DNA of 59,504 nucleotides from Rhodobacterales bacterium HKCCE4037 (GTDB lineage Bacteria; Pseudomonadota; Alphaproteobacteria; Rhodobacterales; Rhodobacteraceae): assembly GCA_015689645.1 (NCBI GenBank), contig WVSM01000014.1, positions 1 through 59,504 on the forward strand, written 5' to 3'. Position 1 is the stretch's first letter. Each line of letters opens with the position of its first letter. Made by a program: the position numbers and the translations under genes. Below are positions 35,302 to 53,372 of the stretch, piece by piece. Under the pieces are notes generated by a model. It was not told where the DNA came from, searched no databases, and was given only the letters and a program-made list of their open reading frames with translations.

Positions 35302-35610
35302 TCAGACCTCCAGGTCCGAGACGAAAATCCCGTCCGCCCCGCCCGCACAATTCGCGACGAGCATCGCCCCGGCGCGCTGATGCTCCGGGTCGTCGACATA
35401 GGCCTGCATCGCGGCCTCATCGTCGAACAGGCAGGTGAAGCCATAGGGATAGGCCTGGCTCTTGCCCTCGAAATCCCGGTTCGGGCCGTGGACGAAACCG
35501 GACAGGCCCGGCAGGCGGTCGGCAACCTCTTCGAGGATCATCATCGCCTCGGCGAAGGAGCCTTCGGCCGCATCAGGCGCGGGGCTGAGAAGAACGGTGT
35601 GAATCAGCAT
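35302..35610 (-). CDS. Dabb-domain (stress-responsive alpha/beta barrel) protein
   Basis: 102 residues with the Dabb ferredoxin-like dimer pattern: MLIHTVLLSPAPDA, the helix ILEEVADRLPGLSGFVHGPNRDFEGKS, YPYGFTCLFDDEAAMQAYVDDPEHQ. Such small proteins form dimeric barrels and are found beside many catabolic genes, sometimes as lyases or cyclases of small acids. It lies 11 bp after the glycerate kinase gene and is probably the last gene of the LacI-controlled GMC operon. Confidence 0.85.
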   Translation of the reverse strand: MLIHTVLLSPAPDAAEGSFAEAMMILEEVADRLPGLSGFVHGPNRDFEGKSQAYPYGFTCLFDDEAAMQAYVDDPEHQRAGAMLVANCAGGADGIFVSDLEV

Positions 35611-35621
35611 CGGCGGTGCCT

Positions 35622-36860
35622 CTAGTCGGTCGGCGCGACAAGGATCGCGCGGAAATCGTTCACGTTGGTCAGGGTCGGGCCGGGCACGACCTGGTCGTTG
35701 ATGGCGGCGAAGAAGCTGTGGGCGTCGTTGCGGGTGAGCGCCTCGCCCGGGTCGATGCCGGCGGCCTTCGCCTTGGCCAGAGTATCGGGGCCGATGACCG
35801 CGCCTGCAACCTCTGCCGCGCCGTCGACGCCGTCGGTATCGCAGGCGAGCGCGTGGATATTCGCAGCGCCGTCCAGCGCAATGGCCAGCGCGAGGGCGTA
35901 TTCCGCGTTCGGCCCGCCGATGCCGTTGCCGCGCCGGGTGACGGTCAACTCGCCGCCCGACAGGATCAGCGTGCCCGGGGCGGCCTTGCGGGCGATCTCG
36001 GCATGGGCGGCGGCGACGTCGCGCGCCTCGCCTTCGAGGGAATCACCGAGGAGTTCCACTTTGTAGCTCCGCGCCTCACCCAGCTCTGCGGCAGCGGCCA
36101 GGGATTGCGAGGGGGCCGCGTAAATCACGTTCTCGACGCGCGAGAGGCGCGGATCGTCCGGTGTGACCGGGTCGCCGCCCGCGTCTAGAAACGCCTTGAT
36201 GGACGCGGGTGGCGTGACCTTCCACGTCTCCAGCGCCTTCAGCGCCCGCGCGGCGCTGCCGGTGTGGCCCACGGTCGGACCGCTGGCGATATCGCCGGGG
36301 TCGTCGCCGGGCACGTCCGAGATCATCAGCGCCAGCATCTTCGCCGGGTAGGCGGCGGCGGCAAGCCTGCCCCCCTTCACGGCAGAAAGTTCCTTGCGGA
36401 TGCCGTTGATCTCGCCAATCGGAGCGCCCGAGGCGAGCAACGCCTGGGTCAGCGCCTGTTTCTCGGCCAGCGTGATGCCGGCCGCCGGGGCTGTCAGCAA
36501 AGCGGAGCCACCGCCGGAGATGAGGGCGAGAACGAAGTCGTCTTCTGTCAGGCCGTCCAGAAGCGCGAGCAGGCGCTTTGTCGCCGCCTCCCCCGCCGCG
36601 TCGGGCACGGGGTGGGCGGCCTCGACGATCTCGATGCCCTTGCAGGGGCGGGCATAGCCGTAGCGCGTGATGACGAGGCCGTCGCAAGGGCCCCATTCGG
36701 CCTCCACCGCTTCGGCCATGCGGGCGCTGGCCTTGCCCGCCCCGATCACAAGCACGCGACCGTCGGGCTTGGGCGGTAGGGCGGCGGCAAGGCTTTGCAT
36801 CGGGTCGGCGACTTCCACCGCGCGGGCGAACAGGCTGCGGAGGAATTCGTCTGGCGTCAT
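35622..36860 (-). CDS. Glycerate 2-kinase (DUF4147/MOFRL family)
   Basis: 412 residues. It has the DUF4147 N-terminal domain (VLVIGAGKASARMAEAVEAEWG, residues ~35-56; DDFVLALISGGGSALLTAPA) and the MOFRL C-terminal domain (TLILSGGELTVTRRGNGIGGPNAEYALALAI, ALACDTDGVDGAAEVAGAVIG). These enzymes phosphorylate D-glycerate to 2-phosphoglycerate; older records call them hydroxypyruvate reductase (TtuD). Its ATG overlaps the LacI stop as ATGA. Its presence in the operon suggests the pathway releases a three-carbon acid feeding glycolysis. Confidence 0.92.
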   Translation of the reverse strand: MTPDEFLRSLFARAVEVADPMQSLAAALPPKPDGRVLVIGAGKASARMAEAVEAEWGPCDGLVITRYGYARPCKGIEIVEAAHPVPDAAGEAATKRLLALLDGLTEDDFVLALISGGGSALLTAPAAGITLAEKQALTQALLASGAPIGEINGIRKELSAVKGGRLAAAAYPAKMLALMISDVPGDDPGDIASGPTVGHTGSAARALKALETWKVTPPASIKAFLDAGGDPVTPDDPRLSRVENVIYAAPSQSLAAAAELGEARSYKVELLGDSLEGEARDVAAAHAEIARKAAPGTLILSGGELTVTRRGNGIGGPNAEYALALAIALDGAANIHALACDTDGVDGAAEVAGAVIGPDTLAKAKAAGIDPGEALTRNDAHSFFAAINDQVVPGPTLTNVNDFRAILVAPTD

Positions 36861-37864
36861 GGCGTCTGTCCCGTGCTTGAGGCGCGCACGACAAGGTCGA
36901 CGGGCGCGCGATGCTCGGGCGGAGGTGTATCACCTTCCTGCATCCATGCCAGCAGCCGGTCTGCGGTGGCGCGCGCGAAGCCGTCGATATCGCAATCGAC
37001 CGACGACAGTTGCGGCCAAACCAGCGCGCAATCCTCGATGTCGTCACAGCCGACGATGCGGATGTCCGTGCCGATAGCGCGGCCCGCGCGGGTGCACCCG
37101 GCGTGCAGACCAAGCGCCACAAGGTCATTGAAACAGACGGCGGCATCGGCCTGCGCGTCGATCAGCGCCTGGGTGATCTCCACCCCGAAGCTGCGCGAGG
37201 ACCGGCCATGGAACACGATCGCGTCGGTGCCGGTGCGCGCCATCTCGGCGAGGTACCCGGATTTGCGCTCCTCGGTGATCTCGGCGCCTTCGATGCCGCC
37301 GACGAAGGCGATCCGCTTCGCGCCCTGCTCGATCAGGTGGCGGGTGGCCAGCGCCGACCCCGTGGCATAGTCGAAACTCGCGAAGGGAAACAGGCCGGTG
37401 CGCGCGTCGGTCTTGCGCAGCACCTGTATGGCGGGCACGCCCGCGCGTTCGATCTGGTCGAAGGTGGTCCCGCAGCCGCCATAGGTGGGCGAAACGACGA
37501 GGGCCGAAACCCCGTGTTCGATCATCGAGCCGACAAGGCGGGACTGAAGCTCCGGGTCTTCGTCGGAATTGGCGATGACAGTGGCGTAGCCTTTCGCCGC
37601 CAGCGTCATCTGCAGCACGGTGGCGAATTCGGTGAAGAACGGGTTGCGCAGATCGTTGATGACCAGCCCGACAAGCCCCGCCGATTGCGACCGCATCTGC
37701 GCGGCGGCGCGGTTGTAGACATAGCCGATCTCGGCCATCGCGGCGCGGACAGCTTCGCGTGTTTCCTCTTTCACCTGCTTCGAATTCTGCAGCACCAGCG
37801 AGACGGTGGATTTCGACACGCCCGCGCGTGCCGCCACGTCGAGGATGGTGGGGCGTTTGTTCAA
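36857..37864 (-). CDS. LacI-family transcriptional regulator, operon member
   Basis: 335 residues from a TTG start overlapping the DUF993 stop as TTGA. The N-terminal helix-turn-helix reads TILDVAARAGVSKSTVSLVLQN, followed by the hinge MRSQSAGLVGLVIND and a periplasmic-binding-protein-like effector domain with DLVALGLHAG and IVGCDDIEDCALVWPQLSSVD. It should repress until a pathway sugar or intermediate binds. The palindrome TGGAACGTTCCA, upstream of this operon and of the Gfo/Idh operon, is its most likely operator. The gene is the fifth in a six- to seven-gene operon, hence probably autoregulated. Confidence 0.93.
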   Translation of the reverse strand: MNKRPTILDVAARAGVSKSTVSLVLQNSKQVKEETREAVRAAMAEIGYVYNRAAAQMRSQSAGLVGLVINDLRNPFFTEFATVLQMTLAAKGYATVIANSDEDPELQSRLVGSMIEHGVSALVVSPTYGGCGTTFDQIERAGVPAIQVLRKTDARTGLFPFASFDYATGSALATRHLIEQGAKRIAFVGGIEGAEITEERKSGYLAEMARTGTDAIVFHGRSSRSFGVEITQALIDAQADAAVCFNDLVALGLHAGCTRAGRAIGTDIRIVGCDDIEDCALVWPQLSSVDCDIDGFARATADRLLAWMQEGDTPPPEHRAPVDLVVRASSTGQTP

Positions 37865-53294: not shown

Positions 53295-53334
53295 GACTTT
53301 CCTCCCTTGCATCGGCCTAGTGTCCGCTTGAAAT

Positions 53335-53346
53335 TGGAACGTTCCG
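53335..53346. promoter_or_regulatory. LacI-type operator 1 upstream of Gfo/Idh operon
   Basis: TGGAACGTTCCG is one base off the palindrome seen at 42837. It lies about 41 bp before the Gfo/Idh start. Confidence 0.72.
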
Positions 53347-53360
53347 ATTTTTCGCCTTAT

Positions 53361-53372
53361 TGGAACGTTCCA
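53361..53372. promoter_or_regulatory. LacI-type operator 2 upstream of Gfo/Idh operon
   Basis: TGGAACGTTCCA is identical to the site at 42837-42848 and centred 26 bp from operator 1. Two sites on one face of the promoter suggest cooperative repression. Confidence 0.8.

Follow-up and report, generated by a model that had tools for sequence, protein, structure and literature searches.

Gene content and organization of the cluster

A gene cluster was identified at positions 35302-53372 of the window, i.e., the whole 59,504-nucleotide stretch of contig WVSM01000014.1 from Rhodobacterales bacterium HKCCE4037 that was analyzed. Every gene that a sequence-only reading had named there was found on the minus strand and belonged to the expected Pfam family, confirming that the cluster is real (gene coordinates below refer to the minus strand unless stated otherwise). 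According to Pfam, the minus-strand genes comprise a Dabb domain protein, a MOFRL-type glycerate kinase, a LacI regulator, DUF993, a GMC oxidoreductase, an SDR, and a second GMC, followed by an ABC importer and by an aldehyde dehydrogenase (ALDH), a crotonase, a CoA-transferase, and a Gfo/Idh oxidoreductase. A minus-strand open reading frame at 47164-48456 was rejected as a gene, as it had no Pfam family and overlapped a regulator gene on the opposite strand.

The oxidoreductases of the first operon include GMC2 (41347-42819; PF05199, PF00732), which resembles FAD glucose and fructose dehydrogenases (best PDB match 6a2u, 107 bits) and in which no signal peptide was seen by eye. This second GMC gene was present as described, with a start that by eye is more likely at 42819 than at the previously given 42855. 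It is accompanied by the SDR oxidoreductase (40640-41350; PF13561; NF009386, 292.5 bits against a cut-off of 250) and the choline-dehydrogenase-like GMC1 (39044-40630; PF00732, PF05199), which scored 478.2 of the 732.1 bits set for BetA (TIGR01810). The Dabb protein lies at 35302-35610 (PF07876). The SDR and DUF993 genes also adjoin in other cluster types.

The second enzyme operon encodes a family I CoA-transferase (YdiF/FadX-like; 50729-52312; PF01144; best PDB match 2ahu, YdiF), a crotonase-fold enoyl-CoA hydratase/dehydratase (49965-50732; PF00378), and the ALDH (48438-49961; PF00171). The ALDH reached no NCBIfam cut-off among the 25 models listed and scored 473.3 of 668.6 bits for BetB (TIGR01804). 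Both Glu113 and Glu133 are kept in the crotonase, whose best PDB match is the 3-hydroxypropionyl-CoA dehydratase 5zai; a 3-hydroxypropionate route was possible by sequence but was set aside, as no source for the acid was found.

Operators, regulators, and the importer

Exact copies of the operator TGGAACGTTCCA were located upstream of the GMC2 operon (42837-42848) and the Gfo operon (53361-53372), the latter with an additional copy bearing one mismatch, TGGAACGTTCCG, at 53335-53346. A genome-wide search returned exact TGGAACGTTCCA just twice in the 3.84-Mb genome, ahead of the two enzyme operons, and all three genome sites with up to one mismatch fell inside the cluster. Operator number was rejected as evidence because the counts are at chance: four matches against 2.0 expected in the window at up to two mismatches, and five matches for a reversed control pattern in the genome at up to one mismatch versus three for the real motif. 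The argument is carried instead by position and conservation, with exact operators ahead of both operons in 12/12 genus relatives and the motif (0-1 mismatch) within 300 bp upstream of the first gene in 73 of the 77 related loci whose upstream sequence was long enough, compared to 3% of 1540 random windows from the same loci. The presumed reader of TGGAACGTTCCA is LacI1 (36857-37864; PF00356), which travels with the operon.

Control by one LacI regulator had been claimed, and the shared operators fit this for both enzyme operons; a second LacI gene had been missed. This gene, LacI2 (47407-48462, plus strand; PF00356, PF13377), is divergent from the importer and present in 12/12 genus loci. The LacI2/importer intergenic region (47168-47406) holds two AACGTT-centred near-palindromes, a motif pair found in the window and in 12/12 genus loci. 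Since the divergent LacI2 promoter has a different motif, the importer here is probably under another regulator than the enzyme operons. It was assigned to the same unit because in relatives without LacI2 (L034 and L118) it sits within the gene run.

The importer consists of a UgpC-type ATPase (42933-44045; PF00005; NF008653, 461.9 bits against a cut-off of 432), two CUT1-type permeases (44049-44933 and 44930-45838; both PF00528), and a solute-binding protein of the glucose-binding type (45917-47167; PF01547). For the latter, the PDB entry 4r2b, titled "with bound glucose," ranked top by sequence and by fold (63% identity), and the nearest structures were glucose- and galactose-binding proteins. 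That the 4r2b ligand is glucose and not an anhydro sugar counts against the anhydro-sugar pathway proposed below.

The Gfo/Idh enzyme and the Sinorhizobium locus

The Gfo/Idh/MocA oxidoreductase (52302-53294; PF01408) is a homologue of 1,5-anhydro-D-fructose reductase (AFR), with full-length similarity over 327 residues to its top PDB matches, 4koa (391 bits) and 2glx (384 bits), and 59% identity to the AFR of an S. meliloti locus (L131). That locus encodes 76 consecutive residues of 4koa without a mismatch, within the same gene set and with the same operator. Lys91 (in E-K-P), Asp173, and His177 (numbered from the start at 53294) correspond in the alignment to identical residues of 4koa and 2glx and were conserved in 98% or more of the 86 AFR-homologue sequences selected at 50% identity or more. 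The E-K-P lysine and the Asp/His pair have catalytic roles in AFR. By homology, the protein is a candidate NADPH-dependent 1,5-anhydrofructose reductase. It scored 86.9 of 650 bits for levoglucosan dehydrogenase (NCBIfam NF052479) and 127.7 of 355 bits for IolG of inositol catabolism (TIGR04380). The statement that the genes matched no named pathway must therefore be amended, as the Gfo/Idh enzyme already had a name through its S. meliloti homologue with the same genes and operator.

The Sinorhizobium afr locus, where afr is presumably SMc04400, shares LacI, AFR, CoA-transferase, crotonase, ALDH, ABC importer, GMC2, SDR, GMC1, glycerate kinase, and DUF993 genes and the operator. The arrangement differs: in Sinorhizobium the AFR operon begins with LacI and DUF993 is divergent, whereas here GMC1 is followed by DUF993, LacI1, the glycerate kinase, and Dabb, and the importer lies opposite a second LacI gene. 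To our knowledge, AFR is the sole gene of the Sinorhizobium locus with tested activity. The S. meliloti gene smc04396 was reportedly induced by dextrin according to an excerpt of PMC4960864, which counts against an anhydro sugar as the substrate.

The route published for Sinorhizobium, from anhydromannitol to mannose via a C1 hydroxylase (excerpt of PMC12441222), conflicts with the one proposed here. If the S. morelense route, credited to Kuhn et al. 2006 in the excerpt of PMC12441222, applied, anhydrofructose would pass via anhydromannitol to mannose with C1 oxygenation outside the cluster, and the remaining genes would serve another substrate. The gene order argues against this division, as the AFR homologue lies directly before the CoA-transferase and crotonase genes in 37/39 fetched DUF993 stretches, 35 of which also include the ALDH gene, and Pfam assigned an oxygenase domain to none of the proteins of the cluster. 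The Rhizobiaceae hydroxylase supposed to follow anhydromannitol was still unidentified according to the same part of this 2025 review. We regard this explanation as very unlikely.

DUF993 and swapping of the lower branch

The DUF993 protein (37861-39024; PF06187, 583 bits) is probably a TIM barrel of the dihydrodipicolinate synthase (DHDPS)/2-keto-3-deoxy-D-gluconate (KDG) aldolase type, judging from its Foldseek neighbors, which were DHDPS, N-acetylneuraminate lyase, and the KD(P)G aldolase 2r91, with a poor query model (pLDDT 61). Its Lys228 was invariant in 73/73 sequences. The family, which has no assigned function, is wider than the pathway because its members also occur beside Gfo, sugar-phosphate isomerase, MFS, or ABC genes, and no paper in the literature collection searched mentioned DUF993. 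The MOFRL-type glycerate kinase (35622-36860) contains both Pfam domains (PF13660, PF05161) and scored 168 and 161 bits on NCBIfam glycerate 2-kinase models with cut-offs of 550 and 670. The lower branch of the non-phosphorylative Entner-Doudoroff pathway comprises a KDG aldolase, glyceraldehyde dehydrogenase, and glycerate 2-kinase. The cluster resembles it in having an ALDH, an aldolase candidate of the DHDPS type, and a putative glycerate kinase of the MOFRL type, and is unlike it in that the aldolase candidate is DUF993, no known KDG aldolase, and in its proposed entry by CoA chemistry. The PfkB protein at 32910-34304 was rejected as a KDG kinase, being closest to ribokinase.

Family co-occurrence, which the sequence-only reading had suggested checking, was surveyed in 49 of 80 named loci and revealed a swap of DUF993/glycerate kinase for a flavoprotein/KDG-kinase homologue. 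Relatives numbered at least 557 loci. In the 39/49 genomes with DUF993, the flavoprotein was absent genome-wide and no kinase copy exceeded 52% identity. Their clusters included the SDR in 39/39 cases (38 before G255, whose sole DUF993 lies ~100 kb from the cluster, was read at its own cluster) and the glycerate kinase in 30/39 (29 plus G255), while the checked stretches of the other nine had no close glycerate kinase nearby at the thresholds used. The 10/49 clusters without DUF993, among them a Stagnihabitans type, carried the flavoprotein (10), a close KDG-kinase homologue (7), a levoglucosan-dehydrogenase-like Gfo (6), Eda (2), the SDR (1), and the glycerate kinase (0). Two of the three genomes lacking a close kinase in these clusters encode DUF993 elsewhere. 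AFR was absent from 5/10 of the DUF993-less clusters, and thus not every version requires the AFR step. These counts ignore relatedness among genomes and used thresholds fixed after the data were seen. For the two kinases scanned, 2-dehydro-3-deoxygluconokinase was by far the best NCBIfam model, with 248.4 and 261.2 of the 400 bits of its cut-off (NF052444), and the one Eda scanned scored 209.8 bits against 156.05 (TIGR01182). A class-wide sample of 192 genomes was too sparse for this purpose (CoA-transferase at E<=1e-120 in 5, DUF993 in 20, and AFR at E<=1e-60 in 3), and was useful for finding G173, where the cluster is present without DUF993. From the swap we infer a common endpoint, such that both cluster versions would consume a 2-keto-3-deoxyhexonate.

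The levoglucosan pathway (LgdA type) likewise employs a Gfo/Idh enzyme on an anhydro sugar. If the cluster encoded a 3-keto-sugar pathway like those for levoglucosan or glycosides, C3 would be oxidized by a Gfo/Idh enzyme or GMC2 and a ring or glycosidic bond would be broken by beta-elimination, with oxidation of the fragments and drainage via CoA. The LgdA-like Gfo genes in 6/10 DUF993-less clusters point in this direction (best model levoglucosan dehydrogenase, with 290 and 307 bits in the two proteins scanned, below the cut-off of 650), as does the similarity of GMC2 to sugar dehydrogenases. The Gfo of the window itself is not LgdA-like (just 87 of 650 bits) and no sugar-phosphate isomerase/epimerase-type protein was detected by Pfam among the cluster proteins. 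This pathway was judged unlikely.

The distribution of the SDR, found with DUF993 in at least 38/39 clusters and without it in 1/10, together with the proximity of the two genes in other cluster types, would suit an oxidise-then-split pair. This would alter the lower half of the anhydro-sugar scheme: C4 oxidation of KDG would produce the 2,4-diketo acid, whose cleavage would release pyruvate along with D-glycerate as the direct substrate of the glycerate kinase. The DUF993 lysine occupies the expected position of the aldolase lysine (judged by motif, the structure model being poor), which speaks against the pair, and the known diketo hydrolases belong to the FAH family and are not of the DHDPS type. 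It was considered about as unlikely as the 3-keto-sugar pathway.

Proposed pathway

The gene content, homologies, operators, conservation, and branch swapping are consistent with an inducible island that breaks down a glucose-like 1,5-anhydro sugar and ends in KDG, a reading to which we assign slightly less than an even chance. Candidate substrates would be 1,5-anhydro-D-fructose, 1,5-anhydroglucitol, and/or 1,5-anhydromannitol. The substrate could be taken up as a monosaccharide by the glucose-type ABC importer, with LacI2. GMC2 would oxidize anhydroglucitol at C2 to 1,5-anhydrofructose, which the Gfo/Idh enzyme would reduce to 1,5-anhydromannitol, and GMC1 and the ALDH would oxidize C6 to the acid, which, given the C2 symmetry of mannitol, is predicted to be 2,6-anhydro-D-mannonate. 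The CoA-transferase may then form the thioester, from which the crotonase would eliminate the beta hydroxyl; opening of the resulting enol ether would give D-KDG, with CoA handed back via the transferase. Finally, DUF993, as a Schiff-base KDG-aldolase-like enzyme, would cleave KDG to pyruvate and glyceraldehyde, and the ALDH and glycerate kinase would convert glyceraldehyde to 2-phosphoglycerate.

Taking 1,5-anhydromannitol through C6 oxidation, CoA activation, and dehydration by the crotonase would yield exactly D-KDG, and the manno configuration from AFR is exactly that giving D-KDG and D-glyceraldehyde. If so, manno-specific reduction by AFR would be the step converting a gluco ring to D-KDG stereochemistry. 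The general form of this chemistry, a CoA-dependent ring opening of cyclic-ether sugars proceeding through 1,5-anhydrohexitol C6 oxidation, CoA loading, crotonase dehydration, D-KDG, CoA recycling, and DUF993 cleavage, is advanced more tentatively and is somewhat doubtful as it stands. The anhydro-sugar scheme needs no step from the SDR or Dabb, and the SDR tracking DUF993 was counted against it. Also weighed against it were the scores of the glycerate kinase, GMC1, the ALDH, and the KDG-kinase homologues below the cut-offs of their nearest named models, the absence of AFR or of a close kinase from some DUF993-less clusters, the nine DUF993 clusters with no close glycerate kinase nearby, the distant DUF993 of G255, and the poor DUF993 structure model.

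AFR reduces osones, and DEH reductases convert 4-deoxy-5-keto uronate to KDG. An ordinary or modified aldopyranose might be the substrate, with GMC2 forming the osone, the AFR homologue the manno aldose, C6 oxidation the uronate, and CoA-assisted elimination the 4-deoxy-5-keto uronate, which the SDR would reduce to KDG before DUF993 and the glycerate kinase finish the route. This alternative provides the SDR with a step, unlike the anhydro-sugar scheme, and agrees with the glucose-type importer, whose homologue has bound glucose, and with the KDG node from branch swapping. For glucose itself, however, it would be a detour where shorter routes exist, and the Gfo is closest to AFR. On balance it was judged unlikely.

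The initial interpretation was partly supported by these analyses. They support a single conserved oxidative sugar module whose operons have operators in common and which includes a glycerate branch as well as an aldolase-like step, and release of a C3 acid that is then phosphorylated fits the proposed scheme. A CoA branch merely draining the remainder fits less well, in our reading, than CoA activation ahead of cleavage.

Relation to known 1,5-anhydro sugar metabolism

1,5-Anhydrofructose and 1,5-anhydroglucitol occur naturally, arising when red algae and fungi break down starch. The excerpt of the 2025 review (PMC12441222) states that these two sugars occur in human blood, that an oxidative 1,5-anhydroglucitol pathway has not been described so far, and that a probiotic against 1,5-anhydroglucitol would need an enzyme acting on it aerobically. 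Our literature search gave no title describing such a pathway among the matches listed. According to the same excerpt of PMC12441222, which cites Ma et al., the anaerobic 1,5-anhydroglucitol pathway depends on the glycyl-radical enzymes YbiW/PflD. It shares the proposed substrate class, and differs in proceeding by phosphorylation and relying on a radical enzyme that is sensitive to oxygen; no glycyl-radical lyase domain was detected by Pfam among the proteins of the cluster. If correct, the proposed scheme would allow 1,5-anhydroglucitol and 1,5-anhydrofructose to be used aerobically. The cluster offers a concrete gene set for tests in non-pathogenic model bacteria and could supply a function for DUF993.

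Conserved operators and regulators of the cluster

The window belongs to a 3.84 Mb genome (36 contigs), and its minus strand between 35302 and 53372 carries two enzyme operons, the first encoding a Gfo/Idh oxidoreductase, a CoA-transferase (CoAT), a crotonase (ECH), and an aldehyde dehydrogenase (ALDH), and the second GMC2, SDR, GMC1, DUF993, LacI1, a MOFRL glycerate kinase, and Dabb, with a CUT1 sugar importer placed between them. The exact operator TGGAACGTTCCA occurred twice in the whole-genome search, once ahead of each enzyme operon, and allowing one mismatch added a single site adjoining the operon 1 copy and none elsewhere, all three sites lying inside the cluster; by themselves, the site counts were at chance level in the window and genome searches. 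Exact operators preceded both operons in 12/12 genus relatives, and in 73 of 77 related loci a copy of the motif with no more than one mismatch lay within 300 bp 5′ of the first gene (two mismatches in the remaining four) compared to 3% of 1540 control windows taken from the same loci. The genome-wide operator search and the co-occurrence in relatives agree with the sequence-only reading of two operons with a common operator, and the cluster is real, conserved, and partly named already.

That reading had also placed the cluster under one LacI regulator, which did not hold, as a second gene (LacI2; 47407-48462, plus strand) was found divergent from the importer. The promoter shared by LacI2 and the importer contained two AACGTT-centered near-palindromes of a type other than TGGAACGTTCCA, both in the window and in 12/12 genus loci. 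The importer is still part of the unit since it lies within a single gene run in the LacI2-less relatives L034 and L118. An extra solute-binding protein gene, its product 46–49% identical to that of the window, was located between the importer permease and ATPase in five of 80 loci (L058, L076, L094, L100, and L117).

Among the neighboring genes, a ribokinase-like PfkB protein (32910-34304, plus strand) has approximately 160 additional N-terminal residues without a Pfam match, and its gene adjoins the cluster in all six genus relatives with a long enough stretch. On the other side, a MarR gene separates the cluster from a TauC-type permease (53956-55227, minus strand) with a long N-terminal part weakly matching a bacterial Ig domain.

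Distribution among relatives

A CoAT search of genome_contigs (one genome per species; 84,980 species) gave at least 557 relatives, of which the best 80 were fetched. Within the cut flanks of these best loci, the CoAT was accompanied by the crotonase in 80/80, ALDH in 72, Gfo in 71 (70 of them with ≥57% identity), GMC2 in 70, and the importer binding protein in 65. According to record titles they were for the most part Rhodobacterales and Hyphomicrobiales, with some MAGs bearing a class or phylum name only, and Roseicyclus and Roseibacterium made up most of the closest named relatives among the CoAT matches listed. Carriers included Rhodophyticola porphyridii and Roseibium porphyridii, whose species names suggest the red alga Porphyridium, and Porphyridium cruentum is listed as the source in the record of the latter. 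An algal starch sugar would be compatible with this, which is no proof of it.

A proposed route from 1,5-anhydro sugars

The top solved relatives of the window Gfo/Idh protein were two 1,5-anhydro-D-fructose reductases (AFR; 391 and 384 bits, full length). A 76-residue stretch of 4koa, one of the two, was encoded letter-perfect in the Sinorhizobium meliloti AFR locus (L131), the reductase of which shares 59% identity with the window Gfo/Idh protein. L131 encodes an annotated “1,5-anhydro-D-fructose reductase” followed by CoAT, crotonase, ALDH, importer, GMC, SDR, GMC, and glycerate kinase; LacI precedes the AFR gene, DUF993 is divergent, and the window's operator lies between them. If S. meliloti afr is SMc04400, smc04396 fits the binding protein gene by number in the L131 order. 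Induction of smc04396 by dextrin is reported in PMC4960864.

We infer a route in which GMC2 would feed in anhydroglucitol by oxidation at C2, AFR would make the manno product, and GMC1 and ALDH would oxidize C6 to the acid. 1,5-Anhydro-D-mannitol oxidized at C6 would yield 2,6-anhydro-D-mannonate because D-mannitol is C2-symmetric, and loss of the beta hydroxyl (sugar C4) with opening of the enol ether would give 2-keto-3-deoxy-D-gluconate (D-KDG). This would explain the presence of CoAT and crotonase, since a thioester acidifies the alpha hydrogen, and that of glycerate kinase; the crotonase retains both glutamates. A gluco ring as start would lead to the opposite C5 configuration in the keto acid and to L-glyceraldehyde upon cleavage, which would account for the manno product of AFR. 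A chemical precedent is the furoate route, in which ring opening of a cyclic enol-ether CoA thioester yields 2-oxoglutaroyl-CoA. SDR and Dabb fall outside the scheme.

Against the CoA route stands the published Sinorhizobium route, which according to a 2025 review (PMC12441222) runs from anhydromannitol to mannose via an unidentified hydroxylase; no oxygenase was present among the cluster proteins. Also counting against the anhydro-sugar scheme, the nearest solved structure to the importer's binding protein holds glucose, and AFR was absent from five of the 10 DUF993-less clusters. The same review lists an oxidative 1,5-anhydroglucitol route as undescribed (PMC12441222), and the finding goes beyond an “unknown sugar pathway” because a candidate gene set is now attached to that route.

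DUF993 and the lower branch

The name DUF993 was not found in the literature searched, and the sole member found among solved structures was 4dnh (SMc04132 of S. meliloti). Foldseek with a poor DUF993 model (pLDDT 61) retrieved 4dnh followed by dihydrodipicolinate synthases, N-acetylneuraminate lyase, and Thermoproteus tenax KD(P)G aldolase. These fold neighbors, together with Lys228 in a DGIK motif conserved in 73/73 sequences, suggest that DUF993 is likely a Schiff-base aldolase. A third setting with Gfo/Idh and sugar-phosphate isomerase/epimerase genes (L122 and L128) indicates that the role of the family extends beyond this pathway.

Genome searches covered 49 of the 80 loci, with 20 kb round DUF993 fetched for 39 and the flavoprotein region for 10. 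DUF993 was found in 41/49 genomes and a 700-residue flavoprotein from one DUF993-less cluster in 10/49, being the eight without DUF993 plus G271 and G276, where DUF993 is present but far from the cluster. The 39 DUF993 stretches, which stop approximately 3.5 kb past the DUF993 start, contained SDR in 38, glycerate kinase in 29, and Dabb in 28, while the flavoprotein, close kinase, Gfo resembling levoglucosan dehydrogenase (LgdA), and Eda were 0/39 within 20 kb. In G255 (Xinfangfangia; L195 and L196) the sole DUF993 lies approximately 100 kb from a cluster that keeps SDR and glycerate kinase, raising the totals to 39/39 and 30/39, respectively. Glycerate kinase was not found at the threshold used in the other nine extended stretches, one having a 38% homolog approximately 5 kb off. 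The G255 DUF993 adjoins LacI-like and CoAT-like matches of 34–36%, and the two cluster halves of G241 are on separate contigs.

All 10 DUF993-less clusters contained the flavoprotein, seven a close kinase, six the LgdA-like Gfo, two Eda, and one SDR, with glycerate kinase and DUF993 both 0/10; in G260 and G279 the 3′ end contained LacI1 without glycerate kinase, the G279 contig stopping approximately 0.7 kb beyond. SDR tracks DUF993. CoAT, ECH, ALDH, importer, GMC2, and GMC1 showed no difference between the 39 and 10 clusters. For the kinase and glycerate kinase, the Fisher p values were 1.4e-6 and 2.2e-5, respectively; these ignore kinship and use thresholds chosen after the data were seen. 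Weaker kinase homologs occurred in 43/49 genomes (E ≤1e-40), and the distinguishing copy (≥62% identity, beside the flavoprotein) was found in 0/39 DUF993 genomes, their best being 52%. Its top NCBIfam model was 2-dehydro-3-deoxygluconokinase (248 and 261 bits, below the cut-off of 400), and the aldolase of the DUF993-less cluster scored above the eda cut-off.

Two versions of the cluster hence exist, one with DUF993 and usually glycerate kinase, the other in most cases with a KDG kinase homolog, joined twice by a KDPG aldolase. Most simply, a 2-keto-3-deoxyhexonate would be consumed by both versions; the flavoprotein and LgdA-like Gfo fall outside this reading. Two DUF993-less loci beyond the 49, L130 and L133, both had the LgdA-like Gfo, and L133 also the flavoprotein and kinase.

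Related clusters

A second cluster type in six records (L121, L123, L125, L126, L127, and L129) retains CoAT, ECH, ALDH, GMC1, SDR, DUF993, and glycerate kinase or Dabb. Its upper genes encode a different ABC importer, an alcohol dehydrogenase, two aldo-keto reductases, and an acyl-CoA dehydrogenase, with electron-transfer flavoprotein genes visible in 4/6. The shared core may act on other compounds as well. In Sagittula P11 a degradative HMG-CoA reductase lies near this cluster type. Mameliella loci L108 and L154 have window-type operators ahead of CoAT, ECH, and acyl-CoA dehydrogenase and also ahead of a TRAP-type binding protein gene.
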